From the NCBI RefSeq assembly GCF_001402945.1, contig NZ_LKBG01000220.1, positions 1 through 41,442 on the forward strand: a stretch of DNA of 41,442 nucleotides, written 5' to 3'. Below, in pieces: positions 14,423-25,171 of this stretch. The notes below the pieces were generated by a model, which worked only from the letters and a program-made list of their open reading frames with translations, did no database searches and had not been told where the DNA came from. A program made the position numbers and the translations under genes. Numbering within the stretch: position 1 is the stretch's first letter; every line of letters begins with the position of its first letter. The stretch is from Acidiplasma aeolicum. GTDB taxonomy: Archaea; Thermoplasmatota; Thermoplasmata; Thermoplasmatales; Thermoplasmataceae.

Positions 14423-15208
14423 ATGATTGTGATAAAAATTGGTGGAAGCATACTTGAGAAGATTATAAATGAAAATGCGCTGCCCAATATTTTAAATAAT
14501 ATAAATGATGATATTATAATAGTCCATGGGGGTGGCAATTACCTAAACAAATACAGTGATGAGTTCGGATATGAACAAAAATTTGTTACGTCCCCAGAGG
14601 GTATAAAAAGCAGGTACACAGATAAAAAAACGCTTGAAATTTTCACAATGGTCATGTCCCTCATAAATGAAAAAATAGTACATTCATTAAGAAACTCAGG
14701 TATCAATGCACTGGGTATTAACGGTGTTTCAATTATTAATGCAAAAAGAAAGGATAAATTAATAATACTTAATGAAAAGAACAGAAAGATGGTAATTGAT
14801 GGGGGTTACACAGGTAAAATCACATCTGTAAATTCAGATATTATTAAAAATATAGTTTTATCTGGATATATTCCTGTAATATCACCTGTGGCATATTCCC
14901 CCGAAAGCTATCTTAATATAGATGCTGACAGGGCAGCAGCATATATTGCAGGATATACAGGTGCCAGCACCCTTATAATGGCCACAAATGTTGACGGACT
15001 TTACTGGGATGGTACAGTGGTTGAGGACGCTGACAGCGAGTATATAAAAAGCATAATAACAAGTGTTGGACATGGCATGGATAAAAAATTAATGGCTGCA
15101 ACAGAGGCCATAGATTTGGGGGTTCAGAATGTTATTATCTCAAATCCATTTAAAGATATTATGCATGGAACTGTAATTTCAAGGAAAACCCATGCAATGA
15201 AGATATAA
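14423..15208 (+). CDS. lysZ: [LysW]-aminoadipate/glutamate kinase LysZ
   Basis: Amino-acid kinase family enzyme (related to ArgB) that phosphorylates the side-chain carboxylate of LysW-bound aminoadipate. 261 residues. Visible motifs are VIKIGGSIL at the N-terminus with the phosphate-binding lysine, the IVHGGGNYLN nucleotide loop near residue 33, NIDADRAAAYIAG near 170, and VDGLYWDG. It starts 3 nt after the lysY stop. Confidence 0.92.
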   Translation: MIVIKIGGSILEKIINENALPNILNNINDDIIIVHGGGNYLNKYSDEFGYEQKFVTSPEGIKSRYTDKKTLEIFTMVMSLINEKIVHSLRNSGINALGINGVSIINAKRKDKLIILNEKNRKMVIDGGYTGKITSVNSDIIKNIVLSGYIPVISPVAYSPESYLNIDADRAAAYIAGYTGASTLIMATNVDGLYWDGTVVEDADSEYIKSIITSVGHGMDKKLMAATEAIDLGVQNVIISNPFKDIMHGTVISRKTHAMKI

Positions 15209-15224
15209 ATTAACAGGTGATGGT

Positions 15225-16409
15225 ATGGAAAATTATGAGGATGAGTATATTGCAAATACGTATCAGAGATTGCCGGTTCATATTAAAAATGGCGAGGAGG
15301 CAAGGCTGTACGATGAAAACGGCAAGGAATACATAGATATGATGGGAGGCTATGGTGTTGCAATATTTGGTTATTCAAATGATAAAATAAAAAAGGCTGT
15401 TTGCGATCAGATGGATATACTTCCAATAGCCCATGCATCAGAGTATACAGAGGCCAGAAATAATTTTGTTAAAAAACTTGCCGATTCTGTTCCGGCAGGC
15501 ATTGATAAATTTTATCTTGGCAACACCGGTGCTGAGGCAATAGAGGCTGCAATAAAGGTCGTAAAAAAGTCATCAAAAAAGCACAAGCTTGTGGCCATGA
15601 CAAATTCATATCATGGAAAAACGCTTGGTGCACTTTCAATTACATATTCAAATAAGTACAGAAAATACTTTGATGACATATTAATAAAAGATGTGCAGTT
15701 CATTAGATACAATAATACCGATGATTTAAAGCTGCTTGAAAAGGATGATGATATAGCTGCGGTTTTCTTTGAGCCGGTTCAGGGAGAAGGTGGAATAAAC
15801 ATACCTGATTATGATTATGTAAGAGAATTAAGGGAAATTACAGAAAAAAACAACATAATATTTGTTGCGGATGAAATTCAATCAGGTCTTGGCAGAACAG
15901 GGAAAATGTGGGCACACCAGCATTTTGACATAACGCCAGACATAATTACAATAGGCAAGGGCATAGGTGGTGGCATACCAATGTCGGTAACAGCAGGCAG
16001 GCATGAATTCATGGATAACCTTGAAAAGGGTGAGCAGTCATCAACAACAGGTGGAAACCCAATAGCATGTGCAGCCGGAACCGCTGTACTGGAACAGCTC
16101 ACGCTAGACCTCATAAACGACGTTGCCAAAAAGGGTGAGTATTTCAGATCAAAATTAAATGAATCATTAAACGATGTTAAAATCGTTAAGGAGGTAAGGG
16201 GGCTTGGGCTTATGAATGCCATAGAGCTTCGCGTAAAATTTTTGCCAGTACTCATGGATCTGATTAATAAAGGCGTTCTTGCACTTTATTCCGGTATTAA
16301 CATTATAAGGATGCTCTCACCATATGTAATATCATATGATGATCTATCAAAGGCATCATCAATAATAGGCGAATCCATAAATGAATACTACAAAGAGGTC
16401 ATAAAATGA
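15225..16409 (+). CDS. lysJ: [LysW]-lysine/ornithine aminotransferase LysJ
   Basis: Class III PLP aminotransferase that turns the LysW-bound semialdehyde into LysW-lysine using glutamate. 394 residues. The GNTGAEAIEAA phosphate loop is at about 99-109, EPVQGEGG at 183-190, DEIQSGLGRTG at 216-226, and the PLP lysine is K245 in TIGKGIGGG. A ribosome site (AGGTGAT) precedes the ATG. Its end overlaps lysX by 4 nt. Confidence 0.93.
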   Translation: MENYEDEYIANTYQRLPVHIKNGEEARLYDENGKEYIDMMGGYGVAIFGYSNDKIKKAVCDQMDILPIAHASEYTEARNNFVKKLADSVPAGIDKFYLGNTGAEAIEAAIKVVKKSSKKHKLVAMTNSYHGKTLGALSITYSNKYRKYFDDILIKDVQFIRYNNTDDLKLLEKDDDIAAVFFEPVQGEGGINIPDYDYVRELREITEKNNIIFVADEIQSGLGRTGKMWAHQHFDITPDIITIGKGIGGGIPMSVTAGRHEFMDNLEKGEQSSTTGGNPIACAAGTAVLEQLTLDLINDVAKKGEYFRSKLNESLNDVKIVKEVRGLGLMNAIELRVKFLPVLMDLINKGVLALYSGINIIRMLSPYVISYDDLSKASSIIGESINEYYKEVIK

Positions 16410-17254
16410 AAGTCTCTCTTGTTTATGACATAATGAGGTGGGAAGAAAAATCAATAATGAAGGCCCTGCAGGATAAAAATGTCGAGGTAATGCTTAAGGA
16501 TGTTAAAAACCTAAATCTTAACCTTGTTGAAAATAATGAAGAATGGGGTGATATATCACTTCAAAGATCCACTGGCTACTACCGGAATCTGCATTCAACA
16601 GCCTATATTGAATTCACAGGGCACAGGATTTTAAATGATTTTAATTCAACTGTGATCACCGGAAATAAAATGTTTACATCGCTTGTTTTATCCCACCATG
16701 GTGTGAAAATTCCAAAAAGTTTTGTATCGTTTTCAAAGGATGTTTTTCTAAAATCGTTTAATGAGGATTTTCATGGTACTGCAGTTACGAAGCCTGTAAC
16801 AGGGAGCTGGGGCAGAATGATATCACTTCTTAATGATTACTATGCTGCAATGGATGTCATGGAATATAAGGATTATATGTATCCATTGTACCAGATAAAT
16901 TATACACAGGAATATATTAATGAATTTGGCCGTGATCTCAGGGTATTTGTAATAAATAATCAGGTTGTTGCAGGAATTTACAGATACAAATCTGGTACTG
17001 ACTGGAGAACAAATACAGCCCTTGGGGGCCGTGCAGAGGCACTAAAAATTACACCTGAAATAGAGGATATTGCACTAAAATCTGCTGAGGCCATAGGCCC
17101 TGGGATTTATGGCATAGACATACTTGAATCTCGGGATGGTTATTTTGTCAACGAAATTAATGGAAACACTGAATTTAAAAATACTGTACCGGTAACTGGC
17201 GTTGACATACCTGCCTATATAGCTGACTATCTTATACTCGAGGCAAGGAAATGA
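16406..17254 (+). CDS. lysX: alpha-aminoadipate-LysW ligase LysX
   Basis: ATP-grasp (RimK-like) ligase that attaches the amino group of alpha-aminoadipate to the C-terminal Glu of LysW. 282 residues. The ATP-grasp parts are KPVTGSWGRM near residue 129, the EYINEFGRDLRVFV strand near 172, GGRAEAL, and the metal-binding end NEINGNTEFKNT (249-260). The EFKN form of that end resembles known LysX proteins, whereas glutamate-specific ArgX proteins have SPGFKG-like residues, so aminoadipate is the likelier substrate. Whether glutamate is also used cannot be told from sequence. Starts and ends with 4-nt overlaps to its neighbours. Confidence 0.9.
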   Translation: MKVSLVYDIMRWEEKSIMKALQDKNVEVMLKDVKNLNLNLVENNEEWGDISLQRSTGYYRNLHSTAYIEFTGHRILNDFNSTVITGNKMFTSLVLSHHGVKIPKSFVSFSKDVFLKSFNEDFHGTAVTKPVTGSWGRMISLLNDYYAAMDVMEYKDYMYPLYQINYTQEYINEFGRDLRVFVINNQVVAGIYRYKSGTDWRTNTALGGRAEALKITPEIEDIALKSAEAIGPGIYGIDILESRDGYFVNEINGNTEFKNTVPVTGVDIPAYIADYLILEARK

Positions 17255-18318
17255 ATACAAGGGACATGTTAATAAAAATGCTTGAAATATACTCACCAAG
17301 CGGGGAGGAGTATGAAATAGCAAAACTCCTTAGAGATTACATGGAGGATTTGGGATTTCCGAATCCGGTTATAGATGAAAAATACAATGTTGTTTCGGTA
17401 ACAGGAAGAAATAAACCATCAATACTAATTTGCGGCCACGAAGATACTGTTCCTGGATTTATTGATGTAAAAATTGACGGTGATTTAATTTACGGCCGCG
17501 GTGCTGTGGACGCAAAATCATCCCTTCTTGCCCTAATGCTTGGGGCAAAACATGCATTAGATTCAGGATTCGATGGCAGAATCATACTTGCAGCAGCCTC
17601 AGGGGAGGAAAGTGATAGCAAGGGTATTAATTACATAGAATCAGGTTACGATAAAACCGACTACGCCATTTTTGGTGAACCGGGAGGCCCTGAAAATATC
17701 ACTGCAGGATACAAGGGAAGAATACTCATGGAGATTAAAAAACACAGCAGCTCCCATCATGCAAGCTCATCATGGATGGAGGAGAATTCCATAGATTCTC
17801 TTATAAACCTCTGGATAAAGATCAGGGATAAATGGGGGAGTAATAAGGATTTTAATGATATAAGCGCGGGAATAACAAAATTTAACGGCGGGGAGTATGA
17901 CAATATGACGCCTGAAAATGCATCAATGTTCATAGATATAAGATATCCAAAATCGGTTACAGAGAATGATATTGTAAGTGAAATTAAATCACTTGCCGGG
18001 GATTCCCGAGAATATATATTTAAAACACAGAACAGAACATATCCATATATATCTGACCTTAAGAGCAATCTGGTATCTGCATTCAAGGCATCAATTAAAA
18101 AGAACGGCATGGTTCCAAGATTAATATTCAAAAGTGGTTCTGGTGACATGAACACACTGGGCCATGACTGGGGGATACCTGTGGTAACCTATGGGCCTGG
18201 TGATACAAAGCTGTCCCACACACCTGACGAGGTTATTAATTACAGGGAAATAGATAAATGTGCAGAAATAGTAAGGGATTCATTAATTTATTTAAAAAAT
18301 AATGTATTTAAAAATTAA
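17251..18318 (+). CDS. lysK: [LysW]-lysine/ornithine hydrolase LysK
   Basis: M20-family zinc amidohydrolase that frees lysine from LysW, the last pathway step. 355 residues. Metal ligands and catalytic residues are in GHEDTVPG (H63, D65), YGRGAVDAK (D87) and SGEESDS (E119/E120), with the C-terminal ligand in KLSHTPDEV. It overlaps lysX by 4 nt at the start and, convergently, the beta-oxidation fusion gene by 4 nt at the end. Confidence 0.92.
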   Translation: MNTRDMLIKMLEIYSPSGEEYEIAKLLRDYMEDLGFPNPVIDEKYNVVSVTGRNKPSILICGHEDTVPGFIDVKIDGDLIYGRGAVDAKSSLLALMLGAKHALDSGFDGRIILAAASGEESDSKGINYIESGYDKTDYAIFGEPGGPENITAGYKGRILMEIKKHSSSHHASSSWMEENSIDSLINLWIKIRDKWGSNKDFNDISAGITKFNGGEYDNMTPENASMFIDIRYPKSVTENDIVSEIKSLAGDSREYIFKTQNRTYPYISDLKSNLVSAFKASIKKNGMVPRLIFKSGSGDMNTLGHDWGIPVVTYGPGDTKLSHTPDEVINYREIDKCAEIVRDSLIYLKNNVFKN

Positions 18319-20243
18319 TTACCACCAAATTTTGGCGACCTTTTTTCCATGAATGCCCTGATTCCCTCCTTAAGGTCATTGCCACCGTAGAGCATTCCCA
18401 TGGAAATTGATTCGAAATCCAGGTTAATTCTGGATGTTCCATATATTAATCTTTTGGCAGTGTAAACCGATGCAGGTGATATCCTCTGTGAAAGTTCCTC
18501 CGTCAATTTTAATGCCTGTGCCTCCCCATCATCATTGAATATTCTTGTTATTATGCCATATTCGTAGGCTTTCTGTGCATTTATTCTTTCGGCTGATAGT
18601 ATTATATCCATGGCCCGGGAAATTCCGATTAATGCCGGAAGCCTCTGGCTGCCACCGTATCCCGGGATTAGGCCAAGGGATGTTTCAGGGAACCCAAGAA
18701 CAGCATCGCCTGAAGAAACCCTTATATCACATGCAAGCGCGAGCTCAAGGCCACCCCCCAGGACATATCCCTTCAGGTAAGCCACAAATATTTTGTTCAT
18801 TTTTGTTATTCTATCAAAGGTATTTTCCCCCTTTTTTGACATTTCCATAAATGCATAGGGGCTGTTTATAAACTGTGACAGATCCGCACCCGCAGAGAAA
18901 TTGGTACCATTGCCTGTTATAAGCACGGCATGTATATCATTGTCAGCTGATATCCTATCAAGCACAGCATTTAATTCATCAATAAGCCCGGAACCTATAA
19001 GATTATTTTTTGTGTTATTTAATTTTATAATTCCTGTATTTTCATGCTTTTCAAAAATTATGTATTTCTGGGCAGTATTTTCGTCTCTGGCCTTTTCTGC
19101 CTTATGTGGTGAAAATGCCTCCTTTAGTTTTCCATTAATTATTGTACTGGATGGTTTAAACACATCAATTTTATATTTTTCATAGAGTGAATTTAGGGTC
19201 TTTAAAACATCAGAGGAGGATAAACCCTGGGCCACTGTTACCGGACCAAATGGCCTGTTCAGACCCAGTTTAACTCCTGTTTCAATATCATTTGGTGTGG
19301 CAATGCCACTCTCTATTAATTTTGTTGCCTCGTTTATTTCAAGTGAAAATACATCCATAAGGCTTATCTTTTCTGAGGGTGCCGCCTCCGGTATTACTGC
19401 CTTACCATTTTCCCACCTGTAAATACCAGACCCTGTTTTCATTCCAAGCTTTCCTGCATTAACGTATGAATCCAGGTTTTTGCATTTTCCATAATCCGGA
19501 GATAATTCCTGTGCATAATATTTTAAGGAATCGTATACGGTATCCAGGCCAACATAATCAAAAAGCTGGTATGGCCCCATTGGAAGGCCCTGAGATTTAA
19601 AGAATGCATCTATGCCTGCAGGGTCCGAATCAGAAAGCGCCATGCAGAATACTAGGAGTTCGGGTGCTGAAACCCTGTTGACAATAAAACCTGCCTCATC
19701 CCTCATAACCTTTATTGGTACTTTCCCTATGGCCTTTGCAACAGCCATTATCTCATCAATATACTTTTCATCTGTTTTATCACCCTTTATAACCTCAACA
19801 AGCTTCATTAATACTGGAGGATTAAAAAAATGCATGCCAAGAAGCCGCTCGGGTTTTTTAACAAATTCGGCCAGTTCGGTAATCCTTATATTTGATGTAT
19901 TCGATGCTATTATTCCATCAGTGTAATTTGAAATTTCCGAAAGCACATTTTTTTTAATTTCAAATTTTTCGGGAACCGCCTCTATTGATATGTATGCTCC
20001 ATCAACAGCATCCTTTATATTGTTATAATAATTAATGTTTTTCAGTGTTTTGTCATACAACTCCCTTGTAATTTTTCCAGAGGAAAGAAGTTTGGATAGG
20101 CTTTCATTTATTTCCCTTTTGGCCCTTTCAATAACCTCGGGATAAAAATCCTCAAGGTTGACACAATAACCGCCAAGCGCAAAAACCTCGGCTATACCGT
20201 GTCCCATTGTTCCTGCTCCTATTACTGCTATTTTTGAATCCAT
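18315..20243 (-). CDS. 3-hydroxyacyl-CoA dehydrogenase / enoyl-CoA hydratase fusion
   Basis: 642 residues carrying two steps of beta-oxidation. The N-terminal part (1-~290) is an NAD-dependent 3-hydroxyacyl-CoA dehydrogenase, with GAGTMG (9-14) and catalytic GMHFFNPP, followed by the C-terminal helical repeat (~300-380). The last ~250 residues are a crotonase domain with both catalytic glutamates in context: GGGLELALACD and LGFPETSLGLIPGYGG. The order dehydrogenase-then-hydratase is the archaeal arrangement, opposite to bacterial FadB. A TATA-like TAATATAT on the minus strand (about 20265-20272) lies about 26 nt before the ATG. Divergent from the acyl-CoA synthetase operon, with a shared 155-nt control region. 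Confidence 0.94.
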   Translation of the reverse strand: MDSKIAVIGAGTMGHGIAEVFALGGYCVNLEDFYPEVIERAKREINESLSKLLSSGKITRELYDKTLKNINYYNNIKDAVDGAYISIEAVPEKFEIKKNVLSEISNYTDGIIASNTSNIRITELAEFVKKPERLLGMHFFNPPVLMKLVEVIKGDKTDEKYIDEIMAVAKAIGKVPIKVMRDEAGFIVNRVSAPELLVFCMALSDSDPAGIDAFFKSQGLPMGPYQLFDYVGLDTVYDSLKYYAQELSPDYGKCKNLDSYVNAGKLGMKTGSGIYRWENGKAVIPEAAPSEKISLMDVFSLEINEATKLIESGIATPNDIETGVKLGLNRPFGPVTVAQGLSSSDVLKTLNSLYEKYKIDVFKPSSTIINGKLKEAFSPHKAEKARDENTAQKYIIFEKHENTGIIKLNNTKNNLIGSGLIDELNAVLDRISADNDIHAVLITGNGTNFSAGADLSQFINSPYAFMEMSKKGENTFDRITKMNKIFVAYLKGYVLGGGLELALACDIRVSSGDAVLGFPETSLGLIPGYGGSQRLPALIGISRAMDIILSAERINAQKAYEYGIITRIFNDDGEAQALKLTEELSQRISPASVYTAKRLIYGTSRINLDFESISMGMLYGGNDLKEGIRAFMEKRSPKFGGN

Positions 20244-20398: not shown

Positions 20399-21976
20399 AT
20401 GAATAACTACAGGCTGACCATTAATGGTCTTTTAGAAGCTTCAGTTATGTCCAATAAAAATCAGGAAATTATTTACAGGGATAGGGAATTAACCTATGAG
20501 GAATTTTATAATAATGTGAAAAGGCTGGCAGGTAATTTGTTGCGGCTGGGTGTAAAAAATGGTGATAGAATTGGCATTATTGATTTTGATACCATAAATT
20601 ATATGTATGCATATTATGCCGTGCCAATGATTGGTGCCACCCTGCATATGGTTAATATAAGGTACCCGCCAGAGATATTATTCTATACAATACAAAACTC
20701 CGAGGATAAATATATTATAGTTAACTCCGCATTCATGCCATTAATAATGCAGTATAAGGATCTATTTAGCTTTGTAAGCCTTTTTATTATTTACTCTGAA
20801 AATGGCCATGAAAAATATAACATGGATAATTATGTTTTTATGGATGACCTGTTAAAGGAAAATGATGAAAAAATCGATGAGCCCGATGAAAATTCCATTG
20901 CAACTCTATTTTATACATCTGGAACAACCGGACTTCCAAAGGGTGTTTATTATACACATAAACAGTTAATATTACACAGCATATCTTCACTGGCTGCATT
21001 ATCAGATGATCCCATAAATTTCAGGCGCACTGATACAATACTTCCACTTGTTCCAATGTTCCATGTCCATGCTTGGGGAATACCATATTTTGCAATATTG
21101 AAAGGCATGAGATATATAGTCCCAGGGAAATACGACTGGCCAAATATACTTAATGCCATGGAGAAATACAATGTAAATGTATCTGCAATGGTGCCATCCA
21201 TACTTTATTTGCTGTTATCAGAAAAAAACGGACCGTCAATAATGGGAAAACTTCATTTAAAAACCATAATTGGGGGTGCGGCAATAACCTCAGGTCTGGC
21301 GGATCTCGCTGAAAAATCAGGCATGACCATAATATCAGGTTATGGCATGTCCGAAACAGGCCCAATAATCACGCTTGCAACATATAATTCCATTATAGAA
21401 AATTCTGATGAAGAAACAAAAAAGGCAGTTAGGAGAAAAACAGGCATACCAATACCAATGGTGAGACTGAGGGTTGTTTCTGGAAACCATGACGTTGAAA
21501 AAAACGAAAATGAAATCGGTGAGATAATTTTGAAGGCCCCGTGGTTAACATCAGGCTATTTTAAGGATGATGAAAAAACTAAAAAGCTATGGCAGGATGG
21601 CTGGCTTCATACAGGAGACCTCGCGGTTATGGATAAATATGGATACATAAAAATTGTTGACAGGGAATCTGATGCGATAAAATCCGGGGGAGAATTTATA
21701 CCATCCGTGATATTGGAAGATTTAATAAGCACGGTTCCAGGGGTTGATGAGGTTGCCGTTGTGGCATACAGAGACCAGAAGTGGGGGGAGCGCCCTGCTG
21801 CATTTATAAAAGGGTCAGCAGATGAAGAAACAATAAGGAAAAAGCTTAATGAATATGTGGATACAGGCAGAATTGCAAAATTCTGGATGCCTGATAGATA
21901 TTATTTTGTTGAAAATTTTGAAAAGACAGGAACAGGAAAAATAGATAAGAAGATACTTAGGGAGAGGGTGAAATAA
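20399..21976 (+). CDS. acyl-CoA synthetase (AMP-forming)
   Basis: 525 residues. Activates a fatty or other carboxylic acid to its CoA thioester through an acyl-AMP intermediate, feeding the adjacent beta-oxidation enzymes. Visible motifs are the P-loop YTSGTTGLPKG (172-182), GYGMSETGP, HTGDLAVMDKYGYIKIVDR with the hinge Asp, and the C-terminal TGTGKIDKK containing the adenylation lysine. Chain-length preference cannot be read. First gene of a four-gene operon; the stop overlaps the thiolase start by 1 nt (TAATG). Confidence 0.92.
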   Translation: MNNYRLTINGLLEASVMSNKNQEIIYRDRELTYEEFYNNVKRLAGNLLRLGVKNGDRIGIIDFDTINYMYAYYAVPMIGATLHMVNIRYPPEILFYTIQNSEDKYIIVNSAFMPLIMQYKDLFSFVSLFIIYSENGHEKYNMDNYVFMDDLLKENDEKIDEPDENSIATLFYTSGTTGLPKGVYYTHKQLILHSISSLAALSDDPINFRRTDTILPLVPMFHVHAWGIPYFAILKGMRYIVPGKYDWPNILNAMEKYNVNVSAMVPSILYLLLSEKNGPSIMGKLHLKTIIGGAAITSGLADLAEKSGMTIISGYGMSETGPIITLATYNSIIENSDEETKKAVRRKTGIPIPMVRLRVVSGNHDVEKNENEIGEIILKAPWLTSGYFKDDEKTKKLWQDGWLHTGDLAVMDKYGYIKIVDRESDAIKSGGEFIPSVILEDLISTVPGVDEVAVVAYRDQKWGERPAAFIKGSADEETIRKKLNEYVDTGRIAKFWMPDRYYFVENFEKTGTGKIDKKILRERVK

Positions 21977-23151
21977 TGGAGGATGCATATATAGTTTATT
22001 TTAAGCGTGTTCCGTTTTCAAGGGCCAGGCCAAATGACCCTGAAAAGGATGCATACAATGATTTGAGAATGGATAAGCTTCTATCGGAATTAATTAATTT
22101 ATCCCTTGAGGAGACCAAAATAAATCCAGAGGAGATAGGCGATGTCATAACCGGATGTGCATTTCAGGCAGGTGAGAACTGGACATACGGAGGCAGGCAT
22201 CCTGTGCTTTTATCAAACCTGCCATACACGGTGCCTGCAATGTCTATGGACAGGGCATGCTCATCATCGCTTAATGCTGCGGGGATAGGTGCCATGGAGG
22301 TCATGCTCGGGAAATCAGATATAGTTCTTGCAGGAGGCATGGAGCACATGACGCATGTTCCTCTTGGCATAAATAATCCATACATTAAACCTAATATGGA
22401 ATTAATGGTAAATCCAAAATACGCAAAATACAATATGAACGTTTCATATAACATGGGATTAACTGCGGAAAAACTTGCCAGCATTAAGCACATTGACAGG
22501 GACGAAATGGATGAATACTCATATAATTCACATTTAAGGGCAGAAAAGGCATACAAGGATGGGTTTTTTAAGGATGAAATAATGCCTGTTGAGGTTAACG
22601 GCCAGGTTTATGAGAAGGATCTTGGAATAAGGCCTGATGCCTCTCTTGAACAAATAAAATCTCTTAGGCCGGCTTTTAAGGAGGATGGCATAATAACTGC
22701 TGGAAATTCATCAACACTTAACGATGGTGCATCTCTTCTGATGATAATGTCAGGAAAGAAGGTTAAGGAATACGGTTTTAAACCGCTTGCAAGAATTGTT
22801 GATTTTGCATCAGCAGGCGTTGACCCCACAATAATGGGTGAGGGTCCTGTTCCGGCCACAGAAAAGGTGCTTAAAAGAAATAAATTAAAGCCTGACGATA
22901 TAGATTACTGGGAGATTAATGAGGCTTTTGCTGTTGTTGTTTTAAATGCTGTAAAGGCATTTAACCTTGATCTTGCCAGGGTAAACATTCACGGTGGTGG
23001 AATTTCCATAGGGCATCCACTCGGGGCCACTGGTGCAAGAATTGCCGGAACATTGGCACGTACATTAAATGATAAAAAGAAGGATCTTGGCATAGCCACA
23101 TTATGCGTTGGTGGAGGGCAGGGATATTCAATGCTTCTGGAGCGTGTTTAA
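21976..23151 (+). CDS. acyl-CoA thiolase (acetyl-CoA acyltransferase)
   Basis: 391 residues, bacterial-type thiolase that cleaves 3-ketoacyl-CoA (or the reverse). Acyl-accepting Cys95 lies in MDRACSSSLNA, His347 in GGGISIGHPLGATGAR, and the second catalytic Cys377 in CVGGGQGYS; EINEAFAVV is also present. All catalytic residues are intact. These features, unlike the archaeal SCP2-type thiolases, mark it as a degradative thiolase. One base overlaps the synthetase; the next gene starts 1 nt after its stop. Confidence 0.93.
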   Translation: MEDAYIVYFKRVPFSRARPNDPEKDAYNDLRMDKLLSELINLSLEETKINPEEIGDVITGCAFQAGENWTYGGRHPVLLSNLPYTVPAMSMDRACSSSLNAAGIGAMEVMLGKSDIVLAGGMEHMTHVPLGINNPYIKPNMELMVNPKYAKYNMNVSYNMGLTAEKLASIKHIDRDEMDEYSYNSHLRAEKAYKDGFFKDEIMPVEVNGQVYEKDLGIRPDASLEQIKSLRPAFKEDGIITAGNSSTLNDGASLLMIMSGKKVKEYGFKPLARIVDFASAGVDPTIMGEGPVPATEKVLKRNKLKPDDIDYWEINEAFAVVVLNAVKAFNLDLARVNIHGGGISIGHPLGATGARIAGTLARTLNDKKKDLGIATLCVGGGQGYSMLLERV

Positions 23152-23152
23152 A

Positions 23153-24226
23153 ATGTTTGAGGAACTTGATGATTACAGAAAGAAGGTAAGGGATTTTGGG
23201 CTCTCTGAATTTACAGAGGATCTTATAGATAGATATGATAAAACAGAGGAATATCCTGATGATATAAGGCTTAAGGCATTAAAATCAGGCCTTATAGATA
23301 TGTCAAATCCGGCAAAGATACTCATCTCAATTGAGGAACTTTGCAGAATAGATGCTGGGCTGGGCATAGCGGCAACAATACCATATTTTGGCGGAGAGGT
23401 TATCATGCTTTATGGTAATGAAAAACAGAAGCGGATTCTCAATGATGTTTATTCAGGGAAATACATACTTGGCCTTGGTGTAACAGAGCCATCCGGTGGC
23501 AGTGATGTTGCTGGACTGAAAACAACAGCAAAAAAAATTGGAGATAAATATGTAATAAATGGATCGAAGATGTTTATTTCCAATGGAGGTATTGCAGATT
23601 ATATAGTGCTTCTAGCGAGAACATCTGATGAGGAGAACAAGCATCACGGCCTTACAACATTTTTAATTAACACAAAATCACCGGGATTTGAGGCCAATAA
23701 ATTGCATGGCAAGCTTGGTGTGAGGGCCACAAATACAGCAGAATTGAAATTTAATAATCTGGAGGTTTCAGTGGATGATGTTATTGGTGAGGTTGGTCAG
23801 GGATTTTATTATATTATGACATTTTTCAATATAAGCAGAATATATGTTGCCGCCCAGGCCCTTGGAATAGCCCGTGGTGCACTGGATAAAATTCTTGAAT
23901 TTGTAAAAAATAATAATATTAAGGATGAATATACAATGTTCAAGGTTTCAGATGTATCAACACGCATAGAGGCGTCAAGGCAGTTAACATACAATGCGGC
24001 ATCATATCTATTTAAGTTTGATCCAAAACCGGCGCTTACAAGCATGGCAAAGGTATATGCCGGAGAAACGGCCGTTTATGCCTCTGAACTGGCCATGGAA
24101 ATTACCAAAAATGATCATAAAACACAGAGATTCTTTAGAAATGCAAAGATAATGGAGATATGGGAGGGAACAAGCGAGATTGAAAAGCTCATTATTTCAA
24201 GGCAGATATTAAAAGGGGGTAATTAA
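23153..24226 (+). CDS. acyl-CoA dehydrogenase, subunit with the catalytic glutamate
   Basis: 357 residues from the ATG at 23153, just after the thiolase stop; an ATG at 23108 inside the thiolase gene is rejected. Shows the family core TEPSGGSDVAGLKT, FISNGG, GLTTFLIN and KLGVRATNTAEL, and the C-terminal IWEGTSEIEKL, whose E338 is the usual catalytic base. Two flavin-contact motifs are missing: the RxxFG after the fourth helix reads NNNIKDEYTMF, and the HGGxGY stretch near residue 315 reads ITKNDHKT. The neighbour at 24227 keeps exactly those motifs, so a mixed dimer is likely. Introduces the double bond in the first oxidation step of the cycle; electrons would go to an ETF not seen here. Confidence 0.9.
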   Translation: MFEELDDYRKKVRDFGLSEFTEDLIDRYDKTEEYPDDIRLKALKSGLIDMSNPAKILISIEELCRIDAGLGIAATIPYFGGEVIMLYGNEKQKRILNDVYSGKYILGLGVTEPSGGSDVAGLKTTAKKIGDKYVINGSKMFISNGGIADYIVLLARTSDEENKHHGLTTFLINTKSPGFEANKLHGKLGVRATNTAELKFNNLEVSVDDVIGEVGQGFYYIMTFFNISRIYVAAQALGIARGALDKILEFVKNNNIKDEYTMFKVSDVSTRIEASRQLTYNAASYLFKFDPKPALTSMAKVYAGETAVYASELAMEITKNDHKTQRFFRNAKIMEIWEGTSEIEKLIISRQILKGGN

Positions 24227-25171
24227 ATGGAGGATGAATATAAACTATTAAGGGAAAACGTTGAGGAATTCGGCAGCACACTGGATGAGAAAAAAATAGA
24301 GGAAAATGGCATTGATAATAATCTCCTTAAAAAACTTGCATCACAGGGCTTCCTTGCCGCATTAATACCTGAAAATCTTGGTGGCTCAGGGCTTGATGAA
24401 TCCTCATATAATATTATTCTGGAGGTGCTTTCAAAATACTCACCGTCCTCTGCATTTGAAATATTTTTAATTAATTCCATTGCATATCCGGTGCTTTCTG
24501 ATGATTTAAATTATCTTAACGATGTTATTAAAGGTGATGATTTTATTGGTATATCTCTTGATAAAACCATAAAAAATAACTCTTTAGATTCTGTATTAAA
24601 TGCAAATGGAAAATATACAATAATGTCCTCTGATGTGCCGGCCATAGCAGAAAACGAAAATTTTACTGAAAAGGATTTTATGGGATTTAAGGGCATAAGG
24701 TTTGGCAATGTCGGTATTAAAAATCAAAAAAATATAAAATCAAATAAAAACATAAAAAATTCAATAATGAATTCATACAGATCACTGGCCGCAATAAATC
24801 TTGGCATAATATCTGGATCGTTGCAAAAGGCACTTGAATACTCTGCTGTCAGGCAGGCATTTGATGTGCATTTAAAGGATTTTGGACCAATAGCATTTAA
24901 TCTATCAAAAATGGTAGCCAGGGAAAATATCCTGAGAAACATTATTTACAGTAATGTAAATTCAGAATATGTTTTTGATTTCTCAATAGAAAATGCACTG
25001 GAAATATCAAAATATTCATTGAATGTTCATGGAGGCTATGGCTATTTTAAGGATTTCGGGGTTGAAAAATTTTACAGGGATGCCATGGCACTTAAGGCCG
25101 TATTTTATGGCAATGATTTTCTTGAAAATCTTTCAAAAAGAGTTTATGGGGAGAGATCTGGATTTATTTAA
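24227..25171 (+). CDS. divergent acyl-CoA dehydrogenase subunit lacking the catalytic glutamate
   Basis: 314 residues, shorter than the usual ~380 because the middle beta domain (about 100-170) is shrunken. The N-terminal helical part has LIPENLGGSGLDESS. The C-terminal part keeps RQAFDVHLKDFGPIAFNLSKM (R209, F212) and NVHGGYGYFKDF (266-277), the two flavin-binding motifs absent from its partner. Where the catalytic EGTSEI belongs it has FYGNDF, without the glutamate. It starts directly at the stop of the first subunit. Probably the structural and flavin-binding half of a heteromeric dehydrogenase, as known for some actinobacterial steroid enzymes. The end overlaps AMMECR1 by 8 nt, convergently. 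Confidence 0.85.
   Translation: MEDEYKLLRENVEEFGSTLDEKKIEENGIDNNLLKKLASQGFLAALIPENLGGSGLDESSYNIILEVLSKYSPSSAFEIFLINSIAYPVLSDDLNYLNDVIKGDDFIGISLDKTIKNNSLDSVLNANGKYTIMSSDVPAIAENENFTEKDFMGFKGIRFGNVGIKNQKNIKSNKNIKNSIMNSYRSLAAINLGIISGSLQKALEYSAVRQAFDVHLKDFGPIAFNLSKMVARENILRNIIYSNVNSEYVFDFSIENALEISKYSLNVHGGYGYFKDFGVEKFYRDAMALKAVFYGNDFLENLSKRVYGERSGFI

Follow-up and report, generated by a model that had tools for sequence, protein, structure and literature searches.

Two adjacent genes of the archaeon Acidiplasma aeolicum, here called alpha and beta, very probably encode the subunits of one obligate heteromeric acyl-CoA dehydrogenase (ACAD), which would bind one FAD per alpha-beta pair and is probably an alpha2beta2 tetramer. 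This reading builds on the observed division of motifs between the two proteins, on synteny, co-occurrence and selection on beta, and on a predicted fold of beta. The genes lie in a window of 41,442 nucleotides, the whole stretch of DNA that was analysed, which is one contig (C220) of a 1.78 Mb genome that is 99% complete. The features of the locus are listed below; fractions refer to 35 syntenic archaeal alpha-beta pairs.

18315..20243, minus strand: 3-hydroxyacyl-CoA dehydrogenase / enoyl-CoA hydratase fusion (Pfam 3HCDH and ECH domains), divergent neighbour of the operon
20399..21976, plus strand: long-chain acyl-CoA ligase (NF004837 above cut-off), same operon as alpha and beta
21976..23151, plus strand: acetyl-CoA C-acyltransferase, a thiolase (NF005033 above cut-off), same operon
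23153..24226, plus strand: alpha, catalytic acyl-CoA dehydrogenase, 357 aa (Pfam N-terminal, middle and C-terminal domains above cut-off)
23483..23506, plus strand: own-subunit flavin contacts of alpha, TEPSGGSD (T111-D118); T, G and S in 35/35 alphas, not kept in betas
23909..23917, plus strand: site of the lost RxxF in alpha (NNN, then a 6-residue deletion); in the alignment, Phe in 0/35 and Arg in 3/35 alphas
24098..24121, plus strand: site of the lost Q..GGYGY loop in alpha (EITKNDHK); Gln in 0/35 and second Gly in 0/35 alphas
24164..24166, plus strand: catalytic Glu338 of alpha (EGTSEI/WEGTSE), at the SCAD/MCAD-type position
24227..25171, plus strand: beta, predicted catalytically dead, flavin-complementing acyl-CoA dehydrogenase, 314 aa (Pfam N- and C-terminal domains only)
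24851..24862, plus strand: RQAF of beta (R209-F212), with Arg209 equivalent to SCAD R297, a partner-subunit FAD contact; Arg in 35/35 and Phe in 35/35 betas
25028..25045, plus strand: HGGYGY of beta (268-273), partner-subunit FAD loop, with Gly270 equivalent to SCAD G369; H, G, G and G in 35/35 betas
25103..25105, plus strand: Phe293 of beta, replacing the catalytic Glu

The operon runs in the order ligase, thiolase, alpha, beta, with the pair at its end, and a terminator scan 3' of it found none. Alpha extends from the ATG at 23153 to a stop ending at 24226, and beta from the ATG at 24227 to a stop ending at 25171, in the same frame and with zero spacing (the TAA of alpha is directly followed by the ATG of beta). 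As judged from its gene complement, the locus is a general beta-oxidation cassette, predicted to provide enzymes both for activation and for every step of the beta-oxidation spiral. The thiolase gene lies directly 5' of alpha in 20/20 neighbourhoods examined, so that thiolase, alpha and beta form a constant core, near which the ligase and the 3HCDH-ECH fusion are often found (the fusion lies near the pair in several relatives). Adjoining the cassette, at positions 14423-18318 of the window, is a row of amino-acid kinase-like, aminotransferase, LysX-type RimK ligase and M20 peptidase genes that resembles a carrier-protein lysine/arginine biosynthesis cluster; at least two relatives likewise have the LysX and M20 genes next to the cassette.

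Both proteins belong to the acyl-CoA dehydrogenase superfamily, alpha by all three Pfam domains and beta by the N- and C-terminal ones together with the alignment of its whole-chain model to ACADs. The original prediction, made from the letters of the sequence, held that alpha keeps the EGTSEI glutamate and lacks the RxxF and HGGxGY motifs, and that beta keeps RQAF and HGGYGY but has lost the glutamate and shrunk its middle domain; all of this was borne out. Alpha, whose closest solved structure is MmgC (5lnx), carries TEPSGGSD, NGSKMFISNG and WEGTSE, the last including Glu338, while its relatives' RxxF position is occupied by KNNN with the 6-residue alignment deletion, and their GGYGY position by TKN---D. 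Beta has Phe293 in place of the base and is devoid of the ring-side motifs; a glutamate on helix G, the moved base of the LCAD/IVD type, was looked for in the betas and is absent. The middle domain, with a median length of 111 residues in alphas and 108 in homomeric enzymes, is reduced to a median of 67 in betas, Pfam detects no middle domain in beta, and two AlphaFold models show 5 middle-domain strands in beta and 7 in alpha. Modelled alone, beta is predicted with high confidence (pLDDT 91.2, pTM 0.92), and the resulting model, in which the N- and C-terminal helical domains are kept, can be superposed end to end on homomeric ACADs (TM about 0.8, normalised to the query).

The division between the subunits becomes clear when individual flavin contacts are considered. 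In the cryo-EM structure of human SCAD, FAD is contacted by F152, L154, S155, G160, S161, T187 and E396, among others, of the subunit itself and by R297, Q365 and G369 of the adjacent one, with E392 as the base (PMC13027082). With a uniform offset of 33 these positions fall on an ordinary ACAD of the source genome, from which they were carried over to the 35 archaeal pairs; T364 of the SCAD paper does not fit this mapping, and by inference its place was given to T394, the threonine of EGT. Partner-subunit contacts (Arg, Gln, Gly) are kept at 3/105 positions in alphas and 105/105 in betas, compared with 90/90 in 30 homomeric enzymes, where Asn at position 365 is counted as Gln (Asn occurs in 5 betas, including that of the window, Asn266; most relatives have Gln). 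Own-subunit contacts are kept at 250/280 positions in alphas and 72/280 in betas, the 30 departures in alphas being 29 Val at the L154 site and one Glu-to-Asp replacement. The catalytic Glu is present in 35/35 alphas and 0/35 betas; the pairs being related sequences, such counts measure conservation and not 35 independent events. Each subunit has therefore lost the half of the FAD site that the other retains. The complementarity suggested beforehand thus proved exact: the contacts missing from alpha are precisely those that in SCAD are supplied by the neighbouring subunit, and those are the ones that beta retains.

The pair is stable in evolution. Alpha lies directly 5' of beta in every locus where both were read, with a spacing of mostly -4 to +5 nt, and the syntenic pair occurs in five families of the class, three of them belonging to the order, and at one other locus (L039). 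Among 77 genomes of the source family, alpha and beta occur together in 68 and are both missing from the other 9, each of which is less than 82% complete, a co-occurrence that partly reflects gene linkage; 35/35 near-complete genomes of the family have both. Beta matches were obtained in 45/250 genomes of the class at E <= 1e-80 and in 30/293 genomes of the phylum at 1e-60, and among these sampled genomes strong matches were not found outside the families mentioned. Within genera, where dS is unsaturated, omega is 0.03-0.24 for beta and 0.02-0.21 for alpha, and dN of beta is roughly twice that of alpha. By these estimates beta is under purifying selection, which on inspection appears concentrated on the partner-contact motifs.

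Several irregular cases were encountered in the course of this survey. In one genome (G109, L163:2250-3256, single contig) beta lies beside an intact alpha but is interrupted by a shift of frame in the middle domain, which leaves two ORFs (159 and 169 aa); this only clearly broken beta seen may represent a sequencing error, a programmed frameshift or a real loss. Another genome (G007, L222:4304-6473) has a second, diverged, whole alpha-beta pair, with HGGYGY in beta and an EGS-type Glu in alpha. A second alpha-like gene with no second beta at the threshold used was found in G219 (C23:17411-18499) and G233 (C18:2-772); these extra alphas could belong to pairs cut by contig ends, or could share one beta. 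A near-complete genome of the same order (G028, family f5) has zero matches to the acyl-CoA dehydrogenase domain PF00441, from which part of the order seems to lack beta-oxidation.

Could alpha nevertheless do without beta, forming a homo-oligomer whose FAD site is loosened, with beta a separate regulatory or structural protein? Alpha does keep all substrate-side and ring-side motifs, and the extra alphas of G219 and G233 would fit such a role, but alpha lacks the very partner contacts that all the homomeric enzymes compared keep, exactly these contacts are the most conserved part of beta, and genomes have both genes or neither, which makes an independent alpha very unlikely. It is even harder to believe that beta is a decaying duplicate heading for loss. 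The loss of its catalytic and middle-domain motifs, its faster evolution and the frameshift in G109 could be read in this way; however, the low omega wherever dS is measurable, the RxxF and HGG.G loop kept in 35/35 betas and the presence of beta in all near-complete genomes of the source family speak against it, and purifying selection together with motif conservation rules this candidate out. A further alternative accepts the split and questions the assembly, which might stop at a single alpha-beta dimer or extend to a larger complex that includes the electron-transferring flavoprotein (ETF) or the thiolase. Stoichiometry cannot be read from sequence and the thiolase gene is always adjacent, yet the dimer of dimers is the assembly of most ACADs (PMC11153573) and beta retains both helical domains, so that an assembly other than alpha2beta2 appears unlikely, although by no means to the same degree as an independent alpha.

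Pairs of this kind have been described in steroid degradation. In ChsE4-ChsE5 the alpha subunit binds the isoalloxazine and carries the Glu, the beta subunit binds the ADP-ribose, and the alpha2beta2 tetramer holds one FAD per dimer, two in all (PMC11153573, PMC8399759). The archaeal pair shares with ChsE4-ChsE5 (FadE26-FadE27), ChsE1-ChsE2 (FadE28-FadE29), IpdE1-IpdE2, Tcur3481-Tcur3483 and Scd1AB the arrangement of two adjacent genes, the base in one subunit only and the partner-side FAD contacts solely in the other; the steroid enzymes have been described as having a single FAD and a single site for each alpha-beta pair. In control pairs from Nocardia colli and a Rhodococcus (6 alphas and 7 betas read) the FAD contacts are divided in largely the same way, with the Arg equivalent to R297 in 7/7 betas and 0/6 alphas. 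The bases, in contrast, are placed differently: 6/6 actinobacterial alphas have a Glu on helix G (LCAD-type) and Gly or Ala at EGT, whereas 35/35 archaeal alphas have the Glu at the C-terminal EGT (SCAD-type) and Ser (33) or Thr (2) on helix G. The helix-G position is the base site in LCAD and IVD, and to our knowledge a Glu there is general to the whole steroid alpha2beta2 family, with which the six rows read here agree. Both base positions coexist in one genome, as seen from another archaeal ACAD type (L002, L192 and relatives), in which the Glu is gone from EGT and carried on helix G (LNxER).

The proposed resemblance to the actinobacterial FadE pairs therefore stands as a working analogy and probably does not reflect kinship: the Glu is placed differently, the profiles lie nearer to homomeric enzymes and there is no steroid neighbourhood. 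Archaeal profiles score homomeric ACADs with medians of 202-283 bits (alpha) and 117-165 bits (beta), as against 93 bits for actinobacterial alphas and 58 bits for betas. The solved structures nearest to beta are homomeric (6fah, 165 bits; Tcur3481 reaches 61), the IpdE2 model NF050027 gives a score of 21.9 against a cut-off of 450, and the neighbours of the pair are the ligase, thiolase and 3HCDH-ECH genes of a general beta-oxidation cassette, unlike those in steroid clusters. Homomeric SCAD-type enzymes (MmgC 5lnx, CarC 6fah, human SCAD) are the best sequence matches of both archaeal subunits, alike in fold and, for alpha, in the EGT Glu and the ring-side motifs; they differ in holding both halves of the FAD site in one polypeptide, and therefore every subunit is active. 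In a first tree the archaeal alphas form one clade that adjoins two homomeric enzymes of Desulfobacterota (L090 and L112; 99 SH-aLRT), which have in common with them FF(N/D)xSRxYV on helix G, with Ser replacing Gly, but which keep RxxF and HGGYGY along with the Glu. No second ACAD gene of at least 250 aa was found near L112.

On balance, we lean towards a second half-site heteromeric class that evolved independently, by parallel loss, in Thermoplasmatales-type archaea; a thiolase-adjacent beta-oxidation dehydrogenase would then have given rise to an alpha of SCAD type, which keeps catalysis, and a beta that clamps the flavin, the arrangement known from steroid-degrading bacteria. It is less probable, while still a contender, that the archaeal pair is a true member of the steroid-type family, by gene transfer or shared descent, in which the Glu moved later; this concerns the origin of the pair and can be reconciled with its being a half-site heteromer. 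The same division of FAD contacts is consistent with such membership, the first tree, a quick one, unites the two beta groups (95 SH-aLRT), though both are long branches, and an AU test does not reject archaeal and actinobacterial alphas as one clade (p 0.50). Archaeal alpha and beta as one clade, as expected from a local duplication of alpha into beta, are not rejected either (p 0.69). Against membership stand the base position, the profile scores, the homomeric nearest structures of beta and the IpdE2 score given above. Pairs outside steroid metabolism offer another comparison: for PimCD-type pimeloyl/dicarboxyl-CoA dehydrogenases, a heterotetramer reported to be ChsE1-ChsE2-like has been proposed (PMC12543098). 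They too are encoded by two ACAD genes in one operon, and the pimC and pimD models score the archaeal alpha at 81 and 54 bits, with cut-offs above 620. A literature search found no heteromeric ACAD in archaea, which, its coverage being partial, is weak evidence of novelty.

For the half-site heteromer that we favour, the complex, its stoichiometry, FAD occupancy and substrate are inferred, and the following mechanism can be proposed. The alpha2beta2 tetramer would have the same build as an ordinary homotetramer. Alpha would bind the acyl-CoA and hold the ring of the flavin together with the beginning of the FAD tail; its Glu338 would act as the base and take the alpha proton, with the hydride passing to FAD, while beta, extending over the interface, would use Arg209, Asn266 and the HGGYGY loop to clamp the opposite, ADP end of the cofactor, as has been reported in the ChsE enzymes. 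The mirror-image second site would be dead twice, with beta lacking the base and the ring contacts and alpha the tail contacts, so that each alpha-beta pair would have a single FAD and a single active site. An AlphaFold model of a read-through alpha-Gln-beta chain, with the stop read as Gln, has confident domains, a pTM of 0.55 and an unsupported relative placement and interface; a Foldseek search with it returned single ACAD chains only. The enzyme would carry out the first step of the general beta-oxidation cassette, followed by the hydratase/hydroxyacyl dehydrogenase and the thiolase, and the reduced FAD would be re-oxidised by ETF, which is encoded elsewhere in the source genome. In genome G000, ETF occurs as long single frames of 609 and 586 aa (L213/L214 on contig C272 and L215/L217 on contig C229), each with two ETF domains and an ETF-alpha C-terminal domain and apparently fused, in addition to one unfused set on C123. 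Related acid-mine archaea have been proposed to draw carbon from the lipids of lysed cells, and their numerous ACADs were noted to be difficult to assign (PMC3750248). Purely by analogy, the substrate may reasonably be guessed to be bulky or branched.

These predictions have consequences for annotation, where alpha readily passes for a complete enzyme and beta for a dehydrogenase that is truncated or has no function; either subunit expressed singly is predicted to fail. In the literature found, heteromeric ACADs with a dead partner belong to degraders of steroids, probably also of dicarboxylates, and splitting accompanies bulky substrates. A conserved archaeal pair with a different base geometry, placed among general beta-oxidation genes, suggests that homo-oligomeric flavoenzymes can split into complementary halves more than once, and the archaeal pairs offer a comparison set for weighing substrate size against neutral ratcheting as the driver of such splitting.
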